Shown piece by piece: positions 12,571 through 56,522 of a stretch of 64,000 nt of DNA. The translations under genes were made by a program, and so were the position numbers. Numbering within the stretch: position 1 is the first letter of the stretch; every line of letters starts with the position of its first letter. The DNA is from an uncultured Nocardioidaceae bacterium (lineage in GTDB: Bacteria; Actinomycetota; Actinomycetes; Propionibacteriales; Nocardioidaceae), in assembly GCA_902805845.1 (NCBI GenBank), contig CADCUI010000014.1:62001-126000 (forward strand). Reading direction: 5' to 3'. The notes under the pieces were generated by a model. The model made no database searches. It was given only the letters and a program-made list of their open reading frames with translations, and was not told the origin of the DNA.

Positions 12571-13947
12571 TCACAGCGTGCGGACGTCGGCCTCCACCGC
12601 TTCGAGGGCCTTGCGGGCCGCGATGAGCACGGGGTCCCAGACCGGCGAGAAGGGCGGGGCGTAGGAGAGGTCGAGGGAGAGGATCTCGTCGACGCTCATC
12701 TCGTTCCAGATGCAGACGGCCAAGGCGTCGATCCGCTTGGCGGCGGCCTGCCGCCCCACGATCTGGGCGCCGAGCAGACGGCCGCTGCGCCGCTCGGCCA
12801 GCATCTTGAGCCGGATGGGCTGGGCACCGGGGAAGTATCCCGCCCTGGTCGTGGAGTCGACGGAGGCGGTGACGAACGAGTACCCCGCCCCTTCGGCCTC
12901 CTCGGTGGAGAGCCCGGTGCGCGCCACCTCGAGGTCGCAGACCTTGGTGACCTGGGTGCCGATGACGCCGGGGAAGGTGGCGTAGCCACCGGCGATGTTG
13001 ATGCCGGCGACCCGTCCCTGCTTGTTGGCGTGCGTTCCCAGCGCGACCACGACTCGATCTCCCGAGAGCCGGTGCCGTGACTCGACGCAGTCGCCGGCGG
13101 CCCACACGCCCTCGGCCTGTGTCCGCATCCTGGCGTCGACCGCGATGCCGCCGGAGGCGCCCAGCGGGATGCCCGCTTCCTGCGCCAGCCGCACGTTCGG
13201 CCGCACGCCGAGGCCCAGCACCACGAGATCGGCGGCCAGCTCCCGGCCACTGGCGGTGACCACGGCACGGGCCCGGCCGTCGGCGCCGACCTCGATGGCC
13301 ACGACCTCGTCGGACAGCACGAGGTCGATGCCCTCGCAGCGGACCGCCTCGGCGATGAACTCCCCGATGTCGGGGTCGAAGGTGCCGACCGGGGTCGCGG
13401 AGCGGTCCACGACGGTGACGGCCAGGCCGCGCACCCGGCAGGCCTCGGCCAGCTCCAGCCCGATGTAGCCACCGCCGATCACGACGACCCTGCTGACCTC
13501 ACCCGACTCGAGCTCGGCGCGGAGCGCTGCCCCGTCGTCGAGGACCTGGACGCCGTACACACCGGCGGCGTCGATGCCCGGCACCGGCGGCCGCATGGGC
13601 ACGCTGCCGGTCGCGTAGACGAGGTCGTCGAAGGGCTCGTTCCCCTCGACACCGCTCTCGAGCTCGCGCCAGCGCACCTCCCGGCGGTCGAGGTCGATCG
13701 CCGTCACCTCGGTACGCATCCGTACGTCGATCCCGGCGGCTCGGTGCTCCTCAGGCGTGCGGGCCACCAAGGCCGCCTCGGTCTCGACCGCTCCCCCGAT
13801 CCAGTACGGGATGCCGCACGCCGAGTACGAGGTGGCGCGGCCACGCTCGAAGGCGACCACCTGGAGGTCCGGCCGCCGCTTCTTGGCCTGTGAGGCCGCA
13901 CTCATCCCTGCGGCATCGCCGCCCACCACCACGAGCCGCTGCACCAT
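12571..13947 (-). CDS. CoA-disulfide reductase-like NAD(P)/FAD oxidoreductase
   Basis: The 458-residue flavoprotein begins with the FAD-binding VVVGGDAAGMSAASQAKK. Next comes the single redox cysteine in YSACGIPYWIGG near residue 43, typical of the CoADR/NADH oxidase/peroxidase group that cycles a Cys-SSCoA or sulfenate. A second Rossmann motif, VVIGGGYIGLELAEA, binds NAD(P)H. GVWAAGDC is the third family motif, and the C-terminal dimerisation domain is complete. The actual substrate (CoA disulfide, mycothiol-related disulfide, sulfur or oxygen) is not decided by sequence. TAGGCT at 13960-13955 lies 7 nt before the ATG at 13947, so a leaderless start was chosen over one 45 nt further upstream. 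Confidence 0.88.
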   Translation of the reverse strand: MVQRLVVVGGDAAGMSAASQAKKRRPDLQVVAFERGRATSYSACGIPYWIGGAVETEAALVARTPEEHRAAGIDVRMRTEVTAIDLDRREVRWRELESGVEGNEPFDDLVYATGSVPMRPPVPGIDAAGVYGVQVLDDGAALRAELESGEVSRVVVIGGGYIGLELAEACRVRGLAVTVVDRSATPVGTFDPDIGEFIAEAVRCEGIDLVLSDEVVAIEVGADGRARAVVTASGRELAADLVVLGLGVRPNVRLAQEAGIPLGASGGIAVDARMRTQAEGVWAAGDCVESRHRLSGDRVVVALGTHANKQGRVAGINIAGGYATFPGVIGTQVTKVCDLEVARTGLSTEEAEGAGYSFVTASVDSTTRAGYFPGAQPIRLKMLAERRSGRLLGAQIVGRQAAAKRIDALAVCIWNEMSVDEILSLDLSYAPPFSPVWDPVLIAARKALEAVEADVRTL

Positions 13948-13999
13948 GGCCGGAAGCCTAGGCCCCGCTTGGCTCTTCCTGTCGGCAGGCACGCGGTGC

Positions 14000-14020
14000 T
14001 ATAATCGAACACATGTTCGA
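14000..14020 (+). promoter_or_regulatory. SOS (LexA) box over a leaderless promoter
   Basis: TATAAT at 14000-14005 is a perfect -10 hexamer, with TTCCTG at 13976-13981 as a possible -35. It shares its last base with TCGAAC-ACAT-GTTCGA at 14005-14020, a perfect match to the actinobacterial LexA box. The ATG of the DUF222 gene (14013) is inside the box. LexA bound here would cover the transcription start. Confidence 0.88.
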
Positions 14021-15587
14021 TAGAACGCGGATCGATGGGCTCAGCAGCGTGGCCTGTGCCGACGCGCTCGTCGCCTCCGTGGTCGCCCAACGCCGGCTGG
14101 GCGCGGAGCGGCTCGCGCTGGCCGCCCACTGGGCAGACCTGCATGCCCCCGTCGACGAGACGGAGGTCGGGGACGACTGGACGGTGCACCGGACGCGGAC
14201 GCAGACCCGCTACTTGCCTGGCGGCTCCGACGGCACGCCGGAGATCTCAGAGTTCGCCGGCGACGAGCTCGGGGCGCTGCTCCAGCTCACCACGGGAAGC
14301 GCCAACCGGCTGCTCCGGGACACGCTCGACCTCCGTCACCGCCACCCGAGGCTGTGGGCAGCCGTCATGACCGGCCAGGTGGACGACTGGAAGGCCAGGA
14401 GGGTCTCCAGCGCCACTGCGTCCGCCGGACTGACCCGAGAACAGGCCCTCGACGTCGACCGCCGTACCGCGGCGGCCCTGGTCGGCCTGCCTTTCTCGCG
14501 GGCGATGGACGCGGTCGCCGCTGAGGTCATCAACGCCGACCCCGAGGGCTATGAGAGGCGGCGCGACGGGGAGGGCCAGCGGAGGTACGTCGGCACTGGC
14601 CGCCGCTCCAACAACCACGGCTTGCGCACGTTGATCGCCCAGACGACCGCCGGTGACGTGGCTCGTCTGGACGCGATGATCACCCACGTGGCGCAGCTGC
14701 TTCTGCGGGCGGGGGACAGCGCCAGCGTCGACCACCGTCGGGCCACGGCGCTGGGGCTCCTGGCCAACCCTGCGCTGGCCTGTCTCTTCATCGCTCAGAG
14801 CGCGGTGCAGGCCGACACACCCCACGTGGCCGATGAGCCGGAGCCGAAACCCGAGACAGGCGAGCAGGCCGCCGAGCACGAGGCGGCTCCTCCGACCGCG
14901 CCGCAGCTGGCAGCCGCGTTCGGAAGGGTGCTGGCCCGGCTCGGCGCCAAGGCGCTGGACGGGTTGCGACCTCGGGCCGTCCTCTACCTGCACCTCGCGG
15001 AGGAAGCGCTCCAAGGTGGCCCTGGATGCCACGTCGTCCGTGCCGAGGACCACGGACCTCTGAGCGTCCGTCAGCTCCGTGAATGGCTCTCCACGACGTG
15101 GGGGACCGACCACGTGGAGGTCAGACCGGTTCTCGACCCCGGGGGCATCACTCCCCTCGACGGCTACGAAGTCCCCTCACGGCTACGGGAAGCGCTGCAG
15201 CTGGCCAGCCCCTTCGAGGTGTTCCCCTACGGCACGTTGGCCTCCCGGCACGCCGACCTCGACCACACCGTTCCCTACGCCGGGCTCCGCGCCCGTCCAC
15301 CTGATGATCATCCGCCACCGGGACAGACCCGGCTCGAGAACCTGGGCCCGCTCGGACGAGGTCATCACCGCGCGAAGACGATGGGTGGCTTCACGCTGCA
15401 CCAGCCGTTGCCGGGCATGTACCTCTGGCGGACGCCGACGGGGCACTGGTTCCACGTCGACAACCAAGGCACCCGTCCGCTCGGGCGGCGCACCCCCGCA
15501 GTCCTGGAGCAGCTCCGTGGCCGCGCCAGCACGGTCACCGCCTCCCGGCTGGACACCGCCTTCGCCGAGCTCGTGCTCGCCGCCTGA
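14013..15587 (+). CDS. DUF222 / HNH endonuclease domain protein (13E12 family)
   Basis: The 524-residue protein has the DUF222 helical region in the first 300 residues (RLGAERLALAAHWADLH, DVDRRTAAALVG). The C-terminal HNH-type zinc/nuclease module follows, with HADLDHTVPY, LENLGPLGRGHHRAKTMGGF and HWFHVDNQGTR. The family is multi-copy in many actinobacteria (13E12 REP proteins of Mycobacterium). Some mycobacterial members are LexA-controlled. The biological role is unknown; DNA nicking is only inferred from the HNH motif. A perfect SOS box spans the start codon, and the -10 box is 7 nt upstream, so the mRNA is predicted leaderless. No flanking repeats or inverted ends suggest a mobile element. 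Confidence 0.88.
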   Translation: MFDRTRIDGLSSVACADALVASVVAQRRLGAERLALAAHWADLHAPVDETEVGDDWTVHRTRTQTRYLPGGSDGTPEISEFAGDELGALLQLTTGSANRLLRDTLDLRHRHPRLWAAVMTGQVDDWKARRVSSATASAGLTREQALDVDRRTAAALVGLPFSRAMDAVAAEVINADPEGYERRRDGEGQRRYVGTGRRSNNHGLRTLIAQTTAGDVARLDAMITHVAQLLLRAGDSASVDHRRATALGLLANPALACLFIAQSAVQADTPHVADEPEPKPETGEQAAEHEAAPPTAPQLAAAFGRVLARLGAKALDGLRPRAVLYLHLAEEALQGGPGCHVVRAEDHGPLSVRQLREWLSTTWGTDHVEVRPVLDPGGITPLDGYEVPSRLREALQLASPFEVFPYGTLASRHADLDHTVPYAGLRARPPDDHPPPGQTRLENLGPLGRGHHRAKTMGGFTLHQPLPGMYLWRTPTGHWFHVDNQGTRPLGRRTPAVLEQLRGRASTVTASRLDTAFAELVLAA

Positions 15588-24494: not shown

Positions 24495-25217
24495 CTATAC
24501 GCGCCCGGGCCGGTTTCCGAGGACCGCGGTGCCGACGCGCACGTGTGTCGCACCGACCCTGATTGCCTGTTCCAGGTCGCCGCTCATGCCCGCGGACAGC
24601 CATGTCGCCGATGGCACCTCGGCCCGGACCTGCGCGCCCGCCGCGGCCAGTCGCGCGAAGGCGGCGGCAGGGTCGCCGCCCATCGGGGCCACGCCCATCA
24701 CCCCGCGCAGCCGGAGGCCGGACGCGGCGGCCACCTCGGCGGCGAGCGAGGGCACCTGGTCGGGGACGGCGCCGCTGCGGTCGCCGGCTGCACCACGCCG
24801 GTCCTCGTCCAGGCTGACCTGCACCAGCACGTCGAGCGGCCGTCCGCGCTCGTCCGCGGCCCGGGACAGCGGCGCCAGCAGCCGCACCCGGTCGACCGAC
24901 TGGACGACGTCCGCCCAGCCGCCCACGGCGGCGGCCTTGTTGCTCTGCAGCTGGCCGATGAAGTGCCACGCCAGGTCGAGGTCGCGGCACTCCTCGCGCT
25001 TGACCGATGCCTCCTGGTGGCGGTTCTCTCCGACGTGCCGCACCCCGAGCTCGGCGAGGAGCCGCACGTCGGAGGCGGGGAAGAACTTCGTGACCACGAC
25101 AAGCGTCACGCCGTCGGGCGGCCGGCCCACCGAGGAGCAAGCGGCGTCGATGCGCGTGTGCAGCGTGTGCAGCGCGGTGGCGAGCTGCTCGCGACGTGAG
25201 GGGCCGGTGACGGTCAC
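24495..25217 (-). CDS. yggS: YggS/PROSC-family PLP homeostasis protein
   Basis: This single-domain alanine-racemase-like protein binds PLP without known catalysis and helps balance vitamin B6 and amino acid pools. The 240-residue product has the PLP lysine in [13 protein letters not shown], the conserved GENRHQE, and [39 protein letters not shown] completes the phosphate-binding end. The GTG start at 25217 overlaps the pgeF stop as GTGA. The position between pgeF and sepF is standard for actinobacterial dcw clusters. Confidence 0.94.
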
Positions 25218-49683: not shown

Positions 49684-52600
49684 TCATGGCCCCGAGCTCC
49701 CCGGTGAGGAGTGCCAGAGCTTGCGAGGAGCGGTCTCCCCGGCAGGCTTGATGTCGGCGTACGGCGACAGCTTGAACCCCGTCGAGTGCACCAGGACCCG
49801 GCGTGCTCCCGGACCGGTCTCCTCCTCCACAGGGGCCACCGGCGGCGGCGCCGGCGCGATCAGGTCGTGCACCGCCGCCACCCCTCCCGACCGCCAGGCA
49901 TCGTGCAGGACGGGCAGCTCCCAACAGCCGGTCGCCCGCAACGACACCCCGCGTCGACCCGTGCGCCGGAGCTCGCCTCTGACGACCAGCAGCCAGGAGT
50001 GGAAGACCGTGGTGGCGCAGGAGCCCAGCACGTCCTCGAAGAAGGTCGCGTCCACCGGCCCGGTCGCGTCGTCGAGGGTGAGGAAGACGACCCGACGGCC
50101 GGAGCGGATCGGGGGTGTCTGGGTGGCCACCTTGACCCCGGCCACCAGCATCTCCCCCTTGTTGCGCTGGTCGAGGAGCTGCGAGGAGCGGACCGTCCCG
50201 AGCGCGTCGAGGAACGGCGCGTAGGCATCCATGACGTGTCTGCTGGCATCGATGCCGAGCACCTCGAGCTCGGCCCGGACCCGTTCGTCGGCGCTCATCT
50301 CGGGCAGCCCGCTGACCTCCCCGGTGTGCAGCGCGTCGGCGGGTGCGTCGCCGAGGTCGAGCGTCAGCTGGACCGACGACACCGGTTCCGGGGTCCGCGG
50401 GGCCCGGGACTGCGACCGTGCCCGACCCCAGACCCCGTCGGGGGAAGGGGGCTGTTCCGGGTGCTGGGCCGGATGCTGGGCCGGCTGCTTTTCCGGCTGC
50501 TGGGCCGGGTGCTGGGCCGGGTTGCTGCTGTTCCGGTCGACCGCGGCCGCCAGCCGGGCAGTGGCTGCCCGGGGTGGACGGACACCGGAGAGGCCACGGC
50601 TGCGGGTCGCCCCTGCCCGGTCGAGGTTCCGGGCGAAGCGGTCGAGGTCGGCGATCTGGAGGAGCAGGTCACGGCGGGTGACAGTCCCCCGACGCGACAC
50701 CTGACCGGACTCACCGATGCCGTAGATGCTGTCGAACCCGCCGGCGACCACCAGCCGCTCCACGGTCGGCCGGGTCACTGCGGCGCGGTGCCAGAAGTCG
50801 GTGAGCGACTGGTAGGGCCGCGCCGCCACGATCCGGCCCACCTCGGCCTCCGAGATGCCTCGGACCTCCGCGAGGGCGAGCCGGATGCCGTGCCGGTGCT
50901 CGGTCCCCGGATCGAGGTTGTCGAGCCGTTCGACGGTGTAGTCCTTGTCGCTGGCGTTGACGTCCAGGCCGAGCACCGTGATGCCGAACTGGCGGGCGTC
51001 GTCGAGGATCAGGCGCTTGGGATACATCCCCGGGTCGTGGGTCAGGACACCGGCCAGGAAGTGGGCCGGGTAGTGGGTCTTCAGCCAGGCCGACTGGTAG
51101 GTCGGGAGGGCGAACGCGGCGGCATGGGCCTTGCAGAACCCGAAGGAGCCGAAGGCCTCCAGCACCTTCCAGACCGCCTCGACGACCCGGCGGGAGTACC
51201 CCTGCCCCATGGCCCGGGGCAGGAACCACAGCTTCACCTCCGCCATGCCCCGGGAGTCCCCCAGCGCGCGCCGCGCCTCGTCGGCCTCGGCCAGCGTGCA
51301 GCCGGCGAACAGCGCGATCATCTCGATCACCTGCTCGTGGAAGACCACGACGCCGCGGGTCTCGCCGAGGATCGGCCGGAGGTGCTCGTGGAGGTAGACC
51401 GGCATCCGCCAGCCCTGCTTGGCCTCGAGGTACGGCGTGATCATGTCGCTCTTCACCGGACCGGGCCGGAACAGCGAGATGTCGGTGACGATGTCGGTGA
51501 AGCAGTCGATCCCGGACTTGCCGACCAGCTCGCGCTGACCCGGTGACTCGATCTGGAAGCAGCCGAGCGTCCTCGACGAGCTGATCAGGTCGTAGGTCGG
51601 CTCGTCGTCGAACGGGACCTGGGCCTCGTCGTCGAGGTCGACGCTCACCCCGTCCACCCGCTGGACCTCGGCCACCGCGTGCGCCATCGCCGACTGCATC
51701 CGGATGCCGAGCACGTCCAGCTTGAGGAGCCCGAGGTCCTCCACGTCGTCCTTGTCGAACTGGCTCATCGGGAAGCCGGCGAAGCTGGCCTCGACCGGGG
51801 TGCGGTCGAGCAGGGTGGCGTCGGAGAGGAGCACCCCGCAGGGGTGGAGGGCGATGTGCCGGGGCAGACCGTCGAGTCGTTCGGCCAGCTGGAACAGCAG
51901 CCCCAGCCGCTCGGCCCCGAGCCCGGAGGCCCGGAGCTCCGGCAGCTCACGGAGGGCCATCCGGGCGTCCCGGGCCCGGATGTGCGGGAAGGCCTTGGCG
52001 ATCGCGTCGATCTCGCCGGGTGGCATGCCGAGCGCGGCGCCGACGTCGCGGATCGCGTGCCGGACCCGGTAGGTGTCCATCATCGACACCGAGACGCACC
52101 GCTCCCCGCCGTACCGGTCCAGGATCGCCTCGTAGATCTCCAGCCGGCGAGCCGACTCCACGTCGATGTCGATGTCGGGCAGCGCCCGCCGGAGCGGGGA
52201 GAGGAAGCGCTCCATCAGCAGCCCGTGCCGCAGCGGGTCGACCCCGGAGATGCCGAGCAGGTAGGTGACGAGGCTGCCGGCACCCGACCCCCGGGCCGCC
52301 GAGCGGATGCCCTTCTCGCGGATCATGTCGCACACGTCGGTGACGGTCAGGAAGTAGGAGGCATAGCCGAGCTCGCCGATCAGCTGCAGCTCGTCGTCGA
52401 GCCGCTTCCAGATGCGCTGCCGGGGACCGTTGCCGTAGCGCCGGCCGATGCCCGCCTCGCACCGGCCACGCAGGACCGCGTCGGCCGTCCCGCTCGCCCT
52501 TTCGTTCGGTGACCCGCTCGACGCCCCCGTCGAGATCTCCAGCTCGGGGAAGTGCACCTCCCCCAGGCCGAGGTCGAGCCGCGGGTCGAGCGCGCACCGG

Positions 52601-53502
52601 TCGGCGACGACCCGCGTGTGGGCCAGCAGGTCCTGAGCGGCCCGGCCCCCCAGGCCGGCCATCGTGCACACCTCCTCCGCGACCGCGGCCATCTCCTTGC
52701 CGGACTTCAAGAACCCCTCCGCGTTGCCCCGGTCGACGTGACGCAGGTCGAGCGGCACCAGCCGGCGGGCGGCGTCGAGCACGTCGACGACGACCGCGTC
52801 GGCCCGGTCGGCGTAGCGCACCGCGTTGCTCAGCACCATCCCGGTGGCGGTCGACCGAGCGAGCCCCGCCATCCGGGCGGCGTGACCGGCGGAGCCCGGT
52901 CCTCGACCGGGCAGCCGGTGGTCGACCACCTCCACGAGGAGGTCGACGGCGTCGAACATCTCCCGCCACCGGCGGAGCACCGCCCCGCCGAGATCGTCAC
53001 GGTGCAGCGTCGCGGCGGCCCCGATCTCCGAGGCCGGACCGAGCAGGGCGAGCACGTCCCGGCCGGCGGCGTGCTCGGCGACCAGGTCGAGGGTGCACAC
53101 CGGCTCGCCGCGCTCGCCGGACAGGTGCGTGGCCGACACCAGCCGGCACACCGCGGCCCAGCCCTGCCGGCTGGCCGCCAGGAACGTGACCCGTGGCAGT
53201 CGCCGGTCCCGGAAGGGCCCACCCCGGGCGGGGGTCCGCCGTGGGGACCGAGGACTGTCCCAGGGCCCGGGCACCAGGCCGGTGGGCGCGAAGGCGAGAT
53301 CCACACCGAGGACGGGTCGGATGCCGTGCGCCTGGCAGGACTTGGCGAACCGCACCGCTCCGTAGGTGCCGTCCCGGTCGGTCAGGGCGAGCACGTCCAT
53401 CTCGTGCTCGACGGCCCGCTCCACCAGGGTCTGGGGTTGCGAGGCGCCGTACTGCAGGGAGTAGCCGGACGCGACGTGGAGATGGACGAACGGGTCGGAC
53501 AC
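49684..53502 (-). CDS. dnaE2: Error-prone DNA polymerase III alpha subunit DnaE2 (ImuC)
   Basis: DnaE2 extends past lesions during the SOS response. The 1272-residue protein is longer than the usual 1050-1100. It has an N-terminal PHP domain (FVHLHVASGYSLQYGA, where the first metal His pair is altered compared with DnaE1 HLHVHTEYS) and ARGSGAGSLVTYLLG. The catalytic aspartates are in LPDIDIDVES and LKLDVLGIRM. CFQIESPGQRELV and the fingers segment FGFCKAHAAAFA follow. The C-terminal OB domain (RRVVFLTLDDATGPVD) follows a low-complexity linker with PAQHPAQ repeats. The GTG at 53502 is 2 nt after the HEPN stop. It belongs to the SOS-box-controlled operon. Confidence 0.93.
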   Translation of the reverse strand: MSDPFVHLHVASGYSLQYGASQPQTLVERAVEHEMDVLALTDRDGTYGAVRFAKSCQAHGIRPVLGVDLAFAPTGLVPGPWDSPRSPRRTPARGGPFRDRRLPRVTFLAASRQGWAAVCRLVSATHLSGERGEPVCTLDLVAEHAAGRDVLALLGPASEIGAAATLHRDDLGGAVLRRWREMFDAVDLLVEVVDHRLPGRGPGSAGHAARMAGLARSTATGMVLSNAVRYADRADAVVVDVLDAARRLVPLDLRHVDRGNAEGFLKSGKEMAAVAEEVCTMAGLGGRAAQDLLAHTRVVADRCALDPRLDLGLGEVHFPELEISTGASSGSPNERASGTADAVLRGRCEAGIGRRYGNGPRQRIWKRLDDELQLIGELGYASYFLTVTDVCDMIREKGIRSAARGSGAGSLVTYLLGISGVDPLRHGLLMERFLSPLRRALPDIDIDVESARRLEIYEAILDRYGGERCVSVSMMDTYRVRHAIRDVGAALGMPPGEIDAIAKAFPHIRARDARMALRELPELRASGLGAERLGLLFQLAERLDGLPRHIALHPCGVLLSDATLLDRTPVEASFAGFPMSQFDKDDVEDLGLLKLDVLGIRMQSAMAHAVAEVQRVDGVSVDLDDEAQVPFDDEPTYDLISSSRTLGCFQIESPGQRELVGKSGIDCFTDIVTDISLFRPGPVKSDMITPYLEAKQGWRMPVYLHEHLRPILGETRGVVVFHEQVIEMIALFAGCTLAEADEARRALGDSRGMAEVKLWFLPRAMGQGYSRRVVEAVWKVLEAFGSFGFCKAHAAAFALPTYQSAWLKTHYPAHFLAGVLTHDPGMYPKRLILDDARQFGITVLGLDVNASDKDYTVERLDNLDPGTEHRHGIRLALAEVRGISEAEVGRIVAARPYQSLTDFWHRAAVTRPTVERLVVAGGFDSIYGIGESGQVSRRGTVTRRDLLLQIADLDRFARNLDRAGATRSRGLSGVRPPRAATARLAAAVDRNSSNPAQHPAQQPEKQPAQHPAQHPEQPPSPDGVWGRARSQSRAPRTPEPVSSVQLTLDLGDAPADALHTGEVSGLPEMSADERVRAELEVLGIDASRHVMDAYAPFLDALGTVRSSQLLDQRNKGEMLVAGVKVATQTPPIRSGRRVVFLTLDDATGPVDATFFEDVLGSCATTVFHSWLLVVRGELRRTGRRGVSLRATGCWELPVLHDAWRSGGVAAVHDLIAPAPPPVAPVEEETGPGARRVLVHSTGFKLSPYADIKPAGETAPRKLWHSSPGSSGP
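50455..50530 (+). repeat. Degenerate 12-bp repeats in the dnaE2 linker
   Basis: Repeated GCTGGGCCGG(A/G)T-like units encode a Pro/Ala/Gln/His-rich stretch between the helix-hairpin-helix region and the OB domain of DnaE2. Units are multiples of 3, so length can vary without loss of frame. Confidence 0.7.
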
Positions 53503-53504
53503 GC

Positions 53505-54023
53505 CTATCCCACCCTGCCCAGCGGCCGGTCCGACTGCTGGCCCGATCGCTGGCCCGATCGCTGGCCCGGTGGGGCAACCGACGAGAGGTGGGGCGCAAG
53601 CGGCAGGTGCCGAGTCAGCCCCAGCGACTCCTCCACCAGCGCCAGGAAGCGGTCGGCGTCCCGGACCAGGTCGTCGGCCTCCCGCTCGGTCACCGCCCTC
53701 CGCGAACCCGCCTCGGCAGCCGCCCGCTTGGCCGCACCCGCGGCGAAGAACCCCGCCCACTCGGCGAGCTCGGGGGCCACCTCGGCGAGCAGCACCCAGG
53801 CGTTGCGTTGCACCGGACGTCCCCTGCGGGGACCTCGCGCACTCGGCTGGGCACGAGCCGCCAGGAGGGCCGCGGTCGCCCGGAGCGCCGCCACATGGGC
53901 ATGGGCGTAGCGCATCCCCACGTCGGGGCTGGTGATCGCCTCCCGCAGGGAGGAGGCGGACCTCGCCAGGTAGGCGAAGCTCGCGGCCGGTACGTCGAAC
54001 GAGGTGCTCACCGGGCTCGTCAC
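53505..54023 (-). CDS. SAV_6107-type HEPN domain protein
   Basis: The 172-residue, mostly helical protein matches the actinobacterial SAV_6107 HEPN-domain family: ASFAYLARSASSLREA, GMRYAHAHVAALRATAALLAAR, NAWVLLAEVAPELAEWAGFFAAGAAKRAAAE, and EADDLVRDADRFLALVEE. I see no classical R-x4-6-H ribonuclease motif, so a non-catalytic HEPN is likely. The C-terminal tail has repeats of GQRSGQRSGQQS. The GTG at 54023 is 5 bp after the DUF6504 stop, and the stop is 2 bp before dnaE2, so the three form one operon. A later in-frame GTG at 54011 is possible. Confidence 0.83.
   Translation of the reverse strand: MTSPVSTSFDVPAASFAYLARSASSLREAITSPDVGMRYAHAHVAALRATAALLAARAQPSARGPRRGRPVQRNAWVLLAEVAPELAEWAGFFAAGAAKRAAAEAGSRRAVTEREADDLVRDADRFLALVEESLGLTRHLPLAPHLSSVAPPGQRSGQRSGQQSDRPLGRVG
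53531..53572 (+). repeat. 12-bp tandem repeat in the HEPN gene 3' end
   Basis: About three copies of GCTGGCCCGATC in a row encode the repeated Gly-Gln-Arg-Ser tail. The repeat is in frame. Confidence 0.8.
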
Positions 54024-54028
54024 CCGAC

Positions 54029-54409
54029 TCAGTCCGCGCACCGCGACAGCCGCCAGCTGCCGTGCGCCCAGTCGAAGATCAGGTCGAAGACGCCGGTGGT
54101 GCCGATCTGCCCACGGCCGGCCTCGACCCGCCACACCTCGCGCTCGGCGAGCAGGTCGTGGACGGACGCAGCAGTGGCCGGGTCGGCAGCAGCCTGGTCG
54201 GCAGCCCGGTCGGCGGCCTGGTCGGCACCGAGGACGGGAGCGACCTCACGGGACTGCCACCAGGGACCGGTCTCCACCCAGTGGGCCAGCACGGCGCTGA
54301 CCTTCCACAGCCACCCCTTCCAGAGGAACTGCTCAGGCCCCTCGACCGGTCCTCCCGCCCCGGGCACCCGCCCCTTCCGCACCTCGACGGGGTCGTCGTA
54401 ACGACGCAT
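54029..54409 (-). CDS. DUF6504 family protein of the dnaE2 cassette
   Basis: The 126-residue protein begins MRRYDDPVEV and has the family pattern FLWKGWLWKVSAVLAHWVETGPWW. Later come REVWRVEAGR and DLIFDWAHGSWRLSR. A loop between them is filled with ADQAADRAADQAAADPA, encoded by a short DNA repeat. DUF6504 proteins are found next to translesion polymerase genes in actinobacteria, but their function is unknown. The ATG at 54409 has a strong ribosome site (GGAGGT, 7 nt). A perfect SOS box and promoter lie about 165-220 bp upstream. It is the first gene of the operon with the HEPN protein and dnaE2. Confidence 0.85.
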   Translation of the reverse strand: MRRYDDPVEVRKGRVPGAGGPVEGPEQFLWKGWLWKVSAVLAHWVETGPWWQSREVAPVLGADQAADRAADQAAADPATAASVHDLLAEREVWRVEAGRGQIGTTGVFDLIFDWAHGSWRLSRCAD

Positions 54410-54572
54410 CTTTTACCTCCGACGGATCAGTCATCCACTCAGCAACGCACCGGACGTCTCGACCCCGTCCCGACCCCTGTCGCCCCGGCGATAGCCTGAG
54501 GCGGCGCTCTCCTGCTCTTCGGGGAGGAGGAGAGACCGGCGGGGTGGGGGTCGAGGTCACCCCGCCAGTCAT

Positions 54573-54627
54573 TCGAACACGTGTTCGAATGACCCCACGG
54601 TACACCCGCCCTCCGACCGCTCGTCAA
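54573..54627 (-). promoter_or_regulatory. SOS (LexA) box and promoter of the dnaE2 operon
   Basis: ATTCGAACACGTGTTCGAAT at 54571-54590 is a perfect 20-bp palindrome containing TCGAAC-ACGT-GTTCGA. On the minus strand it follows TTGACG (54627-54622) and TACCGT (54602-54597), spaced by 19 bp. The box then lies over the predicted transcription start. The leader to the DUF6504 ATG is about 165-180 nt. The box could also affect the divergent ybaK-like gene (start at 54663). Confidence 0.9.
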
Positions 54628-55217: not shown

Positions 55218-56522
55218 ATGGCGCGCGTCGTGGTCATCGGGGGTGGGCTCGGCGGCTGCGCCAGTGCTGCCCGGCTCGCCAAGCTCGGTCACGACGTGAC
55301 GGTCGTCGAGTCGCTCCCCCGGCTCGGTGGCGTCGTGGGCAGCCTCGAGCAGGACGGCTTCCGGTGGGACACCGGTCCCGCCGCCACCGCGGTGCCGGCA
55401 GTCCTGCGAGACCTGTTCCGCAAGTCGGGCCGGCCGCTGGACAAGGAGACCGACCTGGTGCCGGTGGAGCCGATGCGCGAGCACCGGTTCCCCGACGGCA
55501 GCCGGCTGAGGCTGCCCTCGGGAAGCCGTGCCGACCAGCTGGCGGCTGTGGACGAGGGGCTCGGCCTCGGGCTCGGGCGGCAGTGGGTGGACTACGTGCA
55601 CACGTTCGCCGAACCGTGGGACCGGCTGCGCCGGGACTTCTTCGAGCGCCCGTACTCCCCGGCGGTCGCCTCGCCGGAGACGCGGGGCCTGCTGCGGAGC
55701 CGGACCATGATGCACAAGGCGGTCACCCGCCGCTTCAAGGACCCGCGGCTCCGGATGATGGCGCTGCACCACGTGGTCGCGGGCGGCCACGACCCCCGCA
55801 ACGTGCCGGCCTGGATGGGGCTCGTCGACTACCTGGAGCAGAACTTCGGGACCTGGACCATCCCGGGTGGCTTCGGTGTCCTGGCCGACCTCCTGACCAA
55901 GCGGCTGGCCGAGCGGCGGGTCACCGTCCTCACCGGCACCCGGGCCCGGGACATCGGGATGGGACCTGAGGGGCCGGCAGCCGTCCTCACCGACGCGGGC
56001 CCGGTCGTAGCCGACCGCGTGGTCGTGGCGGCCGACCCTCGACAGCTGCCCGCACTCGCGCGGCACGTACGGCGCACGAGGCCGGTTCCGCCCCCCACCG
56101 TCACCCACCTCGGCCTCTCGGCGGGGGTCCCGGTGCTGCCGCGCGAGGTCGTCGTCCACGGCGAGGGCGTCATCACCGTACTCACCGGCGGGCCGGCCCC
56201 CGACGGCAAGGCGGCCTGGACGCTGCTGGGAGGGGGCCGGACGTCGGAGGACCTCGTGCAGGCCCTGGCGCGCACAGGGATCGACGTGCGTGACGCCGTC
56301 GAGACCCGCATCGACCGGTCGCCGCGCGAGCTGGTCGAGCACTACTCCGGCTCGCCCGCAGGAGTGCTGTGGCAGGGACGGGCCACCGTCGGTGACCGGC
56401 TGAGCACCGCGACGCCGCTGCCGCACGTGTACGCCGCCGGCGCCCACACCGGTGGCGGTGGGTGGGTCCCGTTCGTGGGGCTGACCGCGGCCCTCGTGGC
56501 GGAGGCCGTCGGTCCTGCCTGA
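55218..56522 (+). CDS. NAD(P)/FAD-dependent amine-oxidase-like oxidoreductase
   Basis: The 434-residue protein starts with MARVVVIGGGLGGCASAARLAKLGHDVTVVE, a dinucleotide-binding fold. GGVVGSLEQDGFRWDTGP is typical of phytoene desaturase and protoporphyrinogen-oxidase-like enzymes. GGFGVLADLLTKRLAE and the C-terminal VYAAGAHTGGGGWVPFVGLTAALVAEAV complete the FAD site. It resembles CrtI-family members, but no phytoene synthase lies nearby, so a carotenoid role is not supported. The substrate is unknown. The ATG at 55218 lies 7 nt after TAGGGT (55205-55210), supporting this start and a leaderless mRNA. Confidence 0.87.
   Translation: MARVVVIGGGLGGCASAARLAKLGHDVTVVESLPRLGGVVGSLEQDGFRWDTGPAATAVPAVLRDLFRKSGRPLDKETDLVPVEPMREHRFPDGSRLRLPSGSRADQLAAVDEGLGLGLGRQWVDYVHTFAEPWDRLRRDFFERPYSPAVASPETRGLLRSRTMMHKAVTRRFKDPRLRMMALHHVVAGGHDPRNVPAWMGLVDYLEQNFGTWTIPGGFGVLADLLTKRLAERRVTVLTGTRARDIGMGPEGPAAVLTDAGPVVADRVVVAADPRQLPALARHVRRTRPVPPPTVTHLGLSAGVPVLPREVVVHGEGVITVLTGGPAPDGKAAWTLLGGGRTSEDLVQALARTGIDVRDAVETRIDRSPRELVEHYSGSPAGVLWQGRATVGDRLSTATPLPHVYAAGAHTGGGGWVPFVGLTAALVAEAVGPA

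Follow-up and report, generated by a model that had tools for sequence, protein, structure and literature searches.

How is a gene switched on whose promoter, operator, and start codon share the same few bases? This question is raised by positions 14000 to 14020 of the window, i.e., the complete 64-kb stretch of DNA analyzed here, in which a TATAAT hexamer, a LexA (SOS) box, and the ATG of a DUF222/13E12-type gene lie on top of each other. An earlier note on this DNA had proposed that LexA sits on the start of a leaderless mRNA and thus connects an HNH family to the DNA damage response. The current analysis indicates that the window gene is very probably a damage-inducible, LexA-repressed, leaderless DUF222/HNH gene.

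The stack of promoter, operator, and start codon

The stacked arrangement described in the earlier note is exact in the sequence, and its LexA box is perfect (Table 1). The box begins on the last T of TATAAT (14000-14005), which is directly preceded by TGC (13997-13999), resulting in an extended -10 element, and which represents the only TANNNT in the 64 bases 5' of the ATG. The ATG (14013-14015) lies partly inside the right half site of the box. Since this half site encodes the first codons, i.e., MFD in the window gene and MFD or MFE in the family, LexA control over the start would need few changes.

Table 1. Features of the DUF222/13E12 locus in the window
Feature	Position	Strand	Basis
Possible decayed PafBC half motif, CTGTCGGCA	13979..13987	+	N12 instead of N8 from the -10; inference
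Extended -10 promoter element, TGC-TATAAT	13997..14005	+	Direct sequence; TANNNT of relatives stands in the matching place
LexA (SOS) box, TCGAACACATGTTCGA	14005-14020	+	14-bp core at 14006-14019, both half sites perfect
Predicted transcription start, leaderless mRNA	14012..14013	+	7 nt between -10 and ATG; inferred
DUF222/13E12-type protein, 524 aa, start MFDRTRIDG	14013..15587	+	ORF translation; PF02720 six-frame match
HNH core, D417-H418, N443, H452	15261..15368	+	Conserved columns, alignment A3

Of 394 genomes of the class, 71 contain the pattern TANNNTCGAACNNATGTTCGA, which combines TANNNT, box, and ATG, and at least 121 sites with the stack, on at least 119 stretches, were retrieved from the GTDB genome collection. 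Among the matches listed, 88 of 121 sites open an ORF of ≥100 codons at that very ATG and 33 open no 100-codon ORF, 9 of the latter being cut at the locus end. Pfam assigned 50 of these 88 ORFs, again among the matches listed, to DUF222, 4 to UvrD, 2 to RmuC, and 1 to a DinB-type polymerase; three other families were SBP_bac_5, p450, and SocA_Panacea, and the remainder had only an HNH match or none of the families listed. When 30 sites from the class were examined, 23 opened such an ORF (17 DUF222 and 1 UvrD). The stack architecture thus marks damage genes, with DUF222 as its main user in the samples. The looser pattern CGAACNNATGTTCG, which dispenses with the -10, is present in 144 of 149 family genomes, and 2 of 30 examined sites head a long DUF222-like ORF (family assigned by eye, most sites from one genus). 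An ATG inside a LexA box is thus often incidental, and it is the stack with the -10 that predicts a start. A strict triple stack of PafBC motif, -10, and TCGANCATG was found in 9 of 394 genomes (control, 0).

Homologs of the window protein occur at an E value of ≤1e-20 in 75 of 149 family genomes. A set of 49 homologs, composed of 29 best-per-genome loci and 20 picked from the remaining list, was inspected for a LexA box (≤1 mismatch) and for the motif of the activator PafBC, TTGTCRGTG-N8-TANNNT (≤2 mismatches): 18 have the former, 26 the latter, 40 at least one, and 9 neither. The box over the start codon, which the earlier note had reported for the window gene, recurs on the ATG in the same register in eight homologs, namely without mismatch in L074, L081, L358, and L359 and with one mismatch in L054, L064, L355, and L362; L358 and L359 are two like copies in one genome. 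These eight include the nearest homologs, two genes of G004 whose tblastn alignments show 49% identity. In L081, L358, and L359, CTGTCGG is located at N8 (two mismatches in all), and the same -10 serves a PafBC-type motif and the box. The box lies over the start in two registers, exemplified by the window gene and by L047 with TCGAACATG; elsewhere it was found inside the spacer of the PafBC motif (L315) or immediately 5' of this motif (L268, L269, and L273).

A palindrome that arose by chance is hardly credible as an explanation for the box. Box-like sequences are common in the window, where the core CGAACRNNNGTTCG is exact at two sites (14006 and 54574) and has 92 matches versus 47 expected if two mismatches are allowed. 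However, the reversed stack pattern matched none of the 394 class genomes, and the box over the ATG is kept at ≤1 mismatch in 8 of the 49 homologs, with identities of 35 to 49%.

The transcription start of a bacterial promoter is located about 7 nt after the -10, and the mRNA of the window gene should therefore begin at or one base before its AUG. This spacing of 7 nt resembles that of 58 PafBC-type DUF222 promoters, in which the first in-frame start follows the -10 after 6 nt (25 promoters) or 7 nt (17 promoters), i.e., within 6 to 7 nt in 42 of 58; it lies elsewhere in the other 16. The leaderless geometry postulated for the window gene is thus borne out at the level of spacing, which suggests leaderless mRNAs for DUF222 genes as well. 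A different arrangement, with a real box that acts as a downstream roadblock for transcripts from an upstream start, so that the mRNA would not be leaderless, might be imagined in view of the divergent gene sharing the 65-bp gap and of the 16 of 58 relatives whose promoters lack the 6- to 7-nt spacing. It is nevertheless very unlikely, considering the extended -10 in place, its being the only TANNNT before the ATG, the recurrence of the spacing in relatives, and the window ATG, which is preceded by no Shine-Dalgarno-like run.

According to the leaderless reading, a LexA dimer on 14005-14020 would extend from the end of the -10 over the start point and the ATG in the undamaged cell, so that RNA polymerase could not open the promoter. 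After damage, RecA filaments would trigger LexA self-cleavage, transcription would set in at about 14012-14013, and ribosomes would start without a leader, given an mRNA with at most one base 5' of the AUG. The operator would at the same time fix the first codons (MFD). LexA binding, start point, induction, and nuclease activity are predicted for the window gene. Such a start-codon operator would represent a simple natural design for controlling leaderless genes.

The divergent gene encodes an FAD-dependent oxidoreductase-like protein (start near 13947) and is separated from the window gene by the 65-bp gap (13947-14012). Because this gap is so short, LexA on the box might also touch the promoter of the oxidoreductase-like gene. 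A search for this flanking gene at an E value of ≤1e-60 in 8 relatives, run without a positive control, gave no match, a result that says nothing about synteny. Control of the window gene by PafBC was considered and rejected: no PafBC-type motif was detected upstream within 3 mismatches, and the 9-base remnant stands at the wrong spacing.

LexA boxes and PafBC-type motifs at DUF222 genes

The source assembly (3.28 Mb, 91 contigs, 96% complete) contains exact CGAACRNNNGTTCG at ten places. They include lexA, recognized by its DNA-binding and S24 domains (Pfam) and followed by more box-like sequences after the core, as well as recA, ruvC, and uvrA, whose names are based on reading the proteins. 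The remaining sites are those of the window gene and of position 54574, one before a small gene, and three that are intragenic or without a clear target. Since lexA, recA, ruvC, and uvrA carry the core, the motif marks a regulon in the source organism, and features of the LexA regulon, i.e., the box TCGAAC-N4-GTTCGA at the window promoter and lexA in the genome, are present.

Five DUF222 matches were found in this genome, and the window copy alone among them has a LexA box. The other four copies are equipped with a PafBC-type motif, which has no mismatch in the paralog on contig 31 (C31) (G000:C31:26372-26393) and two mismatches in the other three. An in-frame ATG is located 6 nt after the -10 in all four, and the C31 paralog has an out-of-frame ATG that is nearer than the in-frame one. 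The background of this PafBC-plus-ATG rule amounts to 2 sites in 128,000 window positions, neither of them near the window gene. Exact PafBC motifs occur nine times in the source genome (reversed control, 0). In addition to that of C31, they precede genes which, judged by reading the proteins, represent dnaB, ssb, uvrB, and RecB-like, thymidylate-kinase-like, SprT-like, and exonuclease-like genes; the ninth motif is not followed by an ORF within the permitted distance. The genome also has two WYL genes that form a pafB-pafC-like pair.

The wiring of the relatives was assessed in 68 DUF222 genes with the same mismatch limits for the two motifs. These genes were hand-picked from the score-ranked matches listed, with at most four per genome and leaving out L046, whose 5' end is off the contig, and L301; they are not independent, since near-identical copies are included (e.g., two from G049). 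PafBC-type motifs were found in 46 of them, LexA boxes in 22, both in 12, and neither in 12. The control, which comprised positions inside the same DUF222 genes on the same strand rather than promoters of other genes, yielded one PafBC motif and no LexA box at 56,102 positions. The corresponding numbers for 30 DUF222 genes from across the class (one per genome) are 12 PafBC motifs, 13 LexA boxes, 3 genes with both, and 8 with neither, compared to one PafBC motif and no LexA box at 25,127 control positions. A stricter PafBC rule (core with ≤1 mismatch and an exact TANNNT) retains only 22 of 68 and 8 of 30 genes, and some of the two-mismatch PafBC matches may therefore be due to chance. Under this rule, all 30 matches in the 98 genes have the N8 spacer, and none was found at 24 other spacers (0 to 7 and 9 to 24). 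The PafBC motif is evidently real for the DUF222 family.

The sampled DUF222 members thus appear to be mostly wired to DNA damage, either through LexA or through the PafBC activator, and since most relatives have one of these two signatures, the family may act when DNA is broken. With respect to the earlier note, the LexA stack stands, but a second regulator, PafBC, had been missed, which is the one associated with the other four DUF222 genes of the source genome and with most of the 68 relatives.

The sequence TTGTCGGTGG, which is found beside boxes, had been considered a terminal inverted repeat; this idea was dropped, and the sequence corresponds to the PafBC promoter motif. It is mostly located on the coding strand and in 11 loci stands 15 to 30 bases before the first codon that follows the upstream in-frame stop.

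The gene product, its repeated relatives, and possible functions

The DUF222/HNH label of the window protein, as used in the earlier note, holds, though weakly. A six-frame search with PF02720 matched the locus with 31.1 bits (cut-off, 24.4; E value, 1.7e-7; positions 41 to 231 of 306), but hmmscan assigned the protein to no family of Pfam or NCBIfam, HNH families included, and this disagreement renders the DUF222 match marginal. The C31 paralog, which is clearly DUF222 (E value, 5.6e-13; above the cut-off), is 34 to 36% identical to the window protein over two pieces, and the DUF222 homology, which draws on this paralog and on the six-frame score, is weakly indicated. The residues of the HNH core are kept in alignment A3 (20 sequences, i.e., the window protein and 19 relatives), in which the window protein lacks the cysteines of its relatives at columns 402, 407, and 448. 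Such cysteines, which occur in most relatives, are not part of every HNH subfamily; with all three absent, the HNH site of the window protein might be modified or no longer active.

In the AlphaFold model (mean pLDDT, 74.5; pTM, 0.69), the N-terminal part is helical and predicted with high confidence; the C-terminal part is weaker, with block means of 59 to 88 over residues 401 to 460. Foldseek retrieved no match to the predicted structure in the PDB at an E value of ≤0.001, and a profile search of PDB sequences gave a single match, ZRANB3 (E value, 0.048), which is too weak to use. The gene probably codes for an HNH-type DNA endonuclease whose HNH part is preceded by a helical DUF222 domain, and the protein is best described as a putative divergent member of DUF222/13E12 that has retained an HNH core. 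Sequence and comparison are the basis for the stack, the regulon, the conservation, and the HNH core residues.

DUF222 genes reach up to 33 copies in one of 58 genomes, among the matches listed. For each of three genomes, one copy served as the reference for the others (ten copies in total in G049, eight in G181, and two in G247). The nine other copies of G049 share about 1.6 to 1.8 kb with the reference (81 to 95% identity), seven of G181 about 1.2 to 1.5 kb (89 to 91%), and the one of G247 1,546 bp (95%). The shared part consists of the ORF and some upstream DNA, and most of the flanks are unrelated, with only short matches beyond. In G181, it starts about 90 bp before the ORF and includes the LexA box in most copies (one mismatch in seven of eight boxes and two in the other); the aligned part of L392 starts inside the ORF, its LexA box being present, and L390 seems to have a broken ORF. 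The two copies of G247 have a box on the start codon, with 0 and 1 mismatches, and their shared part sets in 23 bp ahead of it. In G049, the shared upstream part is devoid of a LexA box at the promoter, and a PafBC match, with two mismatches, was detected in only 2 of 10 copies. These repeated units are compatible with a spread en bloc as well as with conversion among the copies.

Close variants of GTCAGAAAGTAGTGAC, or the sequence itself, were observed as a short inverted repeat near the left end of the repeated units of G181 (L389 to L396), several of which end at the stop codon; both features could mark the ends of these units.

What, then, is the function of DUF222/HNH genes? It is possible, if short of probable, that they are semi-selfish, homing-like cassettes with their own damage-inducible promoter, timed to the moment of broken DNA and RecA-dependent recombination, which would let the gene copy itself. 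The high copy numbers, the repeated units with mostly unrelated flanks in three genomes, the kept HNH core, and the LexA boxes (≤2 mismatches) that all eight copies of G181 and the two of G247 have before or at the start, within or adjacent to the shared part, are in line with this role. Gene conversion or old duplication would, however, look alike, and the G049 promoters deviate with their missing LexA box and rare, weak PafBC matches. Moreover, nothing closely similar to the window copy was found elsewhere in its genome, and the window protein matched only one record each, both partially, in a phage set (15% of the query; E value, 2e-6) and in a plasmid set (81% of the query; 29% identity; E value, 4e-20).

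About equal in rank is a role as a damage-response nuclease in repair or DNA processing, e.g., in a mismatch-repair-like path as proposed previously (PMC4181829), a reading that is likewise tentative. It accords with the LexA boxes common to the window gene, recA, ruvC, and uvrA, with the PafBC motif that the C31 paralog shares with uvrB, ssb, and dnaB, and with the use of the same stack by UvrD and DinB-type genes. The patchy distribution and variable copy number (75 of 149 family genomes at an E value of ≤1e-20) would nonetheless be unusual for core repair.

A damage-triggered suicide or DNA-degrading nuclease that is silenced by LexA ranks lower and is rather unlikely. The operator over the start would keep leakage low, and the HNH nuclease MSMEG_1275 of Mycobacterium smegmatis cuts chromosomal DNA and kills on overexpression, but according to the accessible text of the same report strong growth inhibition was seen with only one of five HNH proteins that were overexpressed (PMC9416677), and many copies per genome argue against lethality.

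A more general proposal, which is put forward with reserve and seems rather doubtful as a whole, regards DUF222/13E12 genes as actinobacterial damage-triggered cassettes composed of a short leaderless promoter and an HNH ORF that switch regulators within about 45 bp. Small changes would provide an upstream PafBC site, a LexA box that overlaps or adjoins the start codon, or the two together. If true, the DUF222 family would represent a homing-like element whose timing follows recombination, or else a dispersed arsenal of nucleases for the damage response. The damage signatures combined with starts directly after the -10 turn a family of "function unknown" into a testable question: what is the benefit of these HNH proteins to a cell with damaged DNA, or to a selfish gene?

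Known systems and other genes at LexA boxes

The 13E12-family HNH genes of Mycobacterium tuberculosis were reportedly placed in the LexA regulon by Davis in 2002. In the accessible parts of later papers, this regulon counts 13E12-family HNH genes with a proposed role in mismatch repair (PMC4181829), among them Rv0515, Rv1702c, Rv3074, and Rv3776 as probable members (PMC5005354). Rv3074 and Rv3776, for which HNH homology was noted, are induced 29-fold and 22-fold by moxifloxacin (PMC7911356), and five putative HNH endonucleases respond to mitomycin C in a RecA-dependent manner (PMC8151990). In view of these reports, the link between 13E12 and SOS was already known: the regulatory reading of the earlier note is very likely right, but it is not new, being in print for M. 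tuberculosis. The M. tuberculosis genes share with the window gene the 13E12-type HNH protein and the box TCGAAC-N4-GTTCGA, and the accessible text describes them as damage-induced and some as RecA-dependent. The refined motif MKWMTCGAAMRYWTGTTCGA given there (PMC4181829) fits a stack of -10, box, and WTG, which is the present reading and not that of the paper; a box on a leaderless start codon is not described in these parts of the literature. A further difference, drawn from the descriptions of the M. tuberculosis genes, is that the window protein lacks the cysteines and only just scores as DUF222.

The consensus TTGTCRGTG-N8-TANNNT is said to have been defined for the RecA-NDp promoter by Gamulin in 2004. 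At the other four DUF222 genes of the source genome, the arrangement is the same as in the PafBC/RecA-NDp regulon, with the motif and an ATG 6 nt after the -10, whereas the window gene has no motif at the right spacing and only a LexA box. The available portions of two papers give the RecA-independent damage promoter motif as TGTCGG-10N-TA-3N-T (PMC8151990) and report that this type of motif is bound by PafBC and that recA, uvrA, and uvrC are under dual LexA/PafBC control (PMC8223512). Among open-licence papers, none was found that joins 13E12 and PafBC.

A leaderless SOS gene, as predicted here, has a counterpart in lexA of M. tuberculosis, whose translation start coincides with the transcription start (PMC2897130), but in the accessible part of that report the box is not placed on the start codon. 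The aforementioned MSMEG_1275 is likewise an actinobacterial HNH nuclease that is up-regulated with damage genes and cuts DNA, and its likeness to the window protein is that of an HNH protein; in contrast to the window gene, it is regulated by an ArsR protein (PMC9416677, as far as accessible). What seems to be new is the broader pattern, which comprises two damage regulators, starts that directly follow the -10, copies split 4:1 in a single genome, and LexA boxes in or beside the repeated units of two genomes.

Start-codon operators are not limited to DUF222 genes, since UvrD-type helicases, assigned by inspection to L136, L148, L157, L200, and L232, also start at a TANNNT, LexA box, and ATG stack. 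In the window itself, the second perfect LexA box is part of the 24-bp palindrome TCATTCGAACACGTGTTCGAATGA (54569-54592). The minus-strand genes 3' of it encode, according to Pfam, a DUF6504 protein (54029-54409), a SAV_6107-like HEPN protein (53505-54134), and a DnaE2-like polymerase (49684-53760), which probably form an SOS-controlled mutagenesis operon; a plus-strand YbaK-like gene (54663) is located on the other side of the palindrome. Elsewhere in the source genome, a LexA box just precedes a gene for a 123-aa protein (PPGWP...WLLDICPPEYR) without a Pfam family (L021:1499-1905; G000:C42). Small proteins that appear similar by eye start at stacked LexA boxes in L166, L170, L178, L206, and L234, and the 123-aa protein is possibly an undescribed SOS protein.
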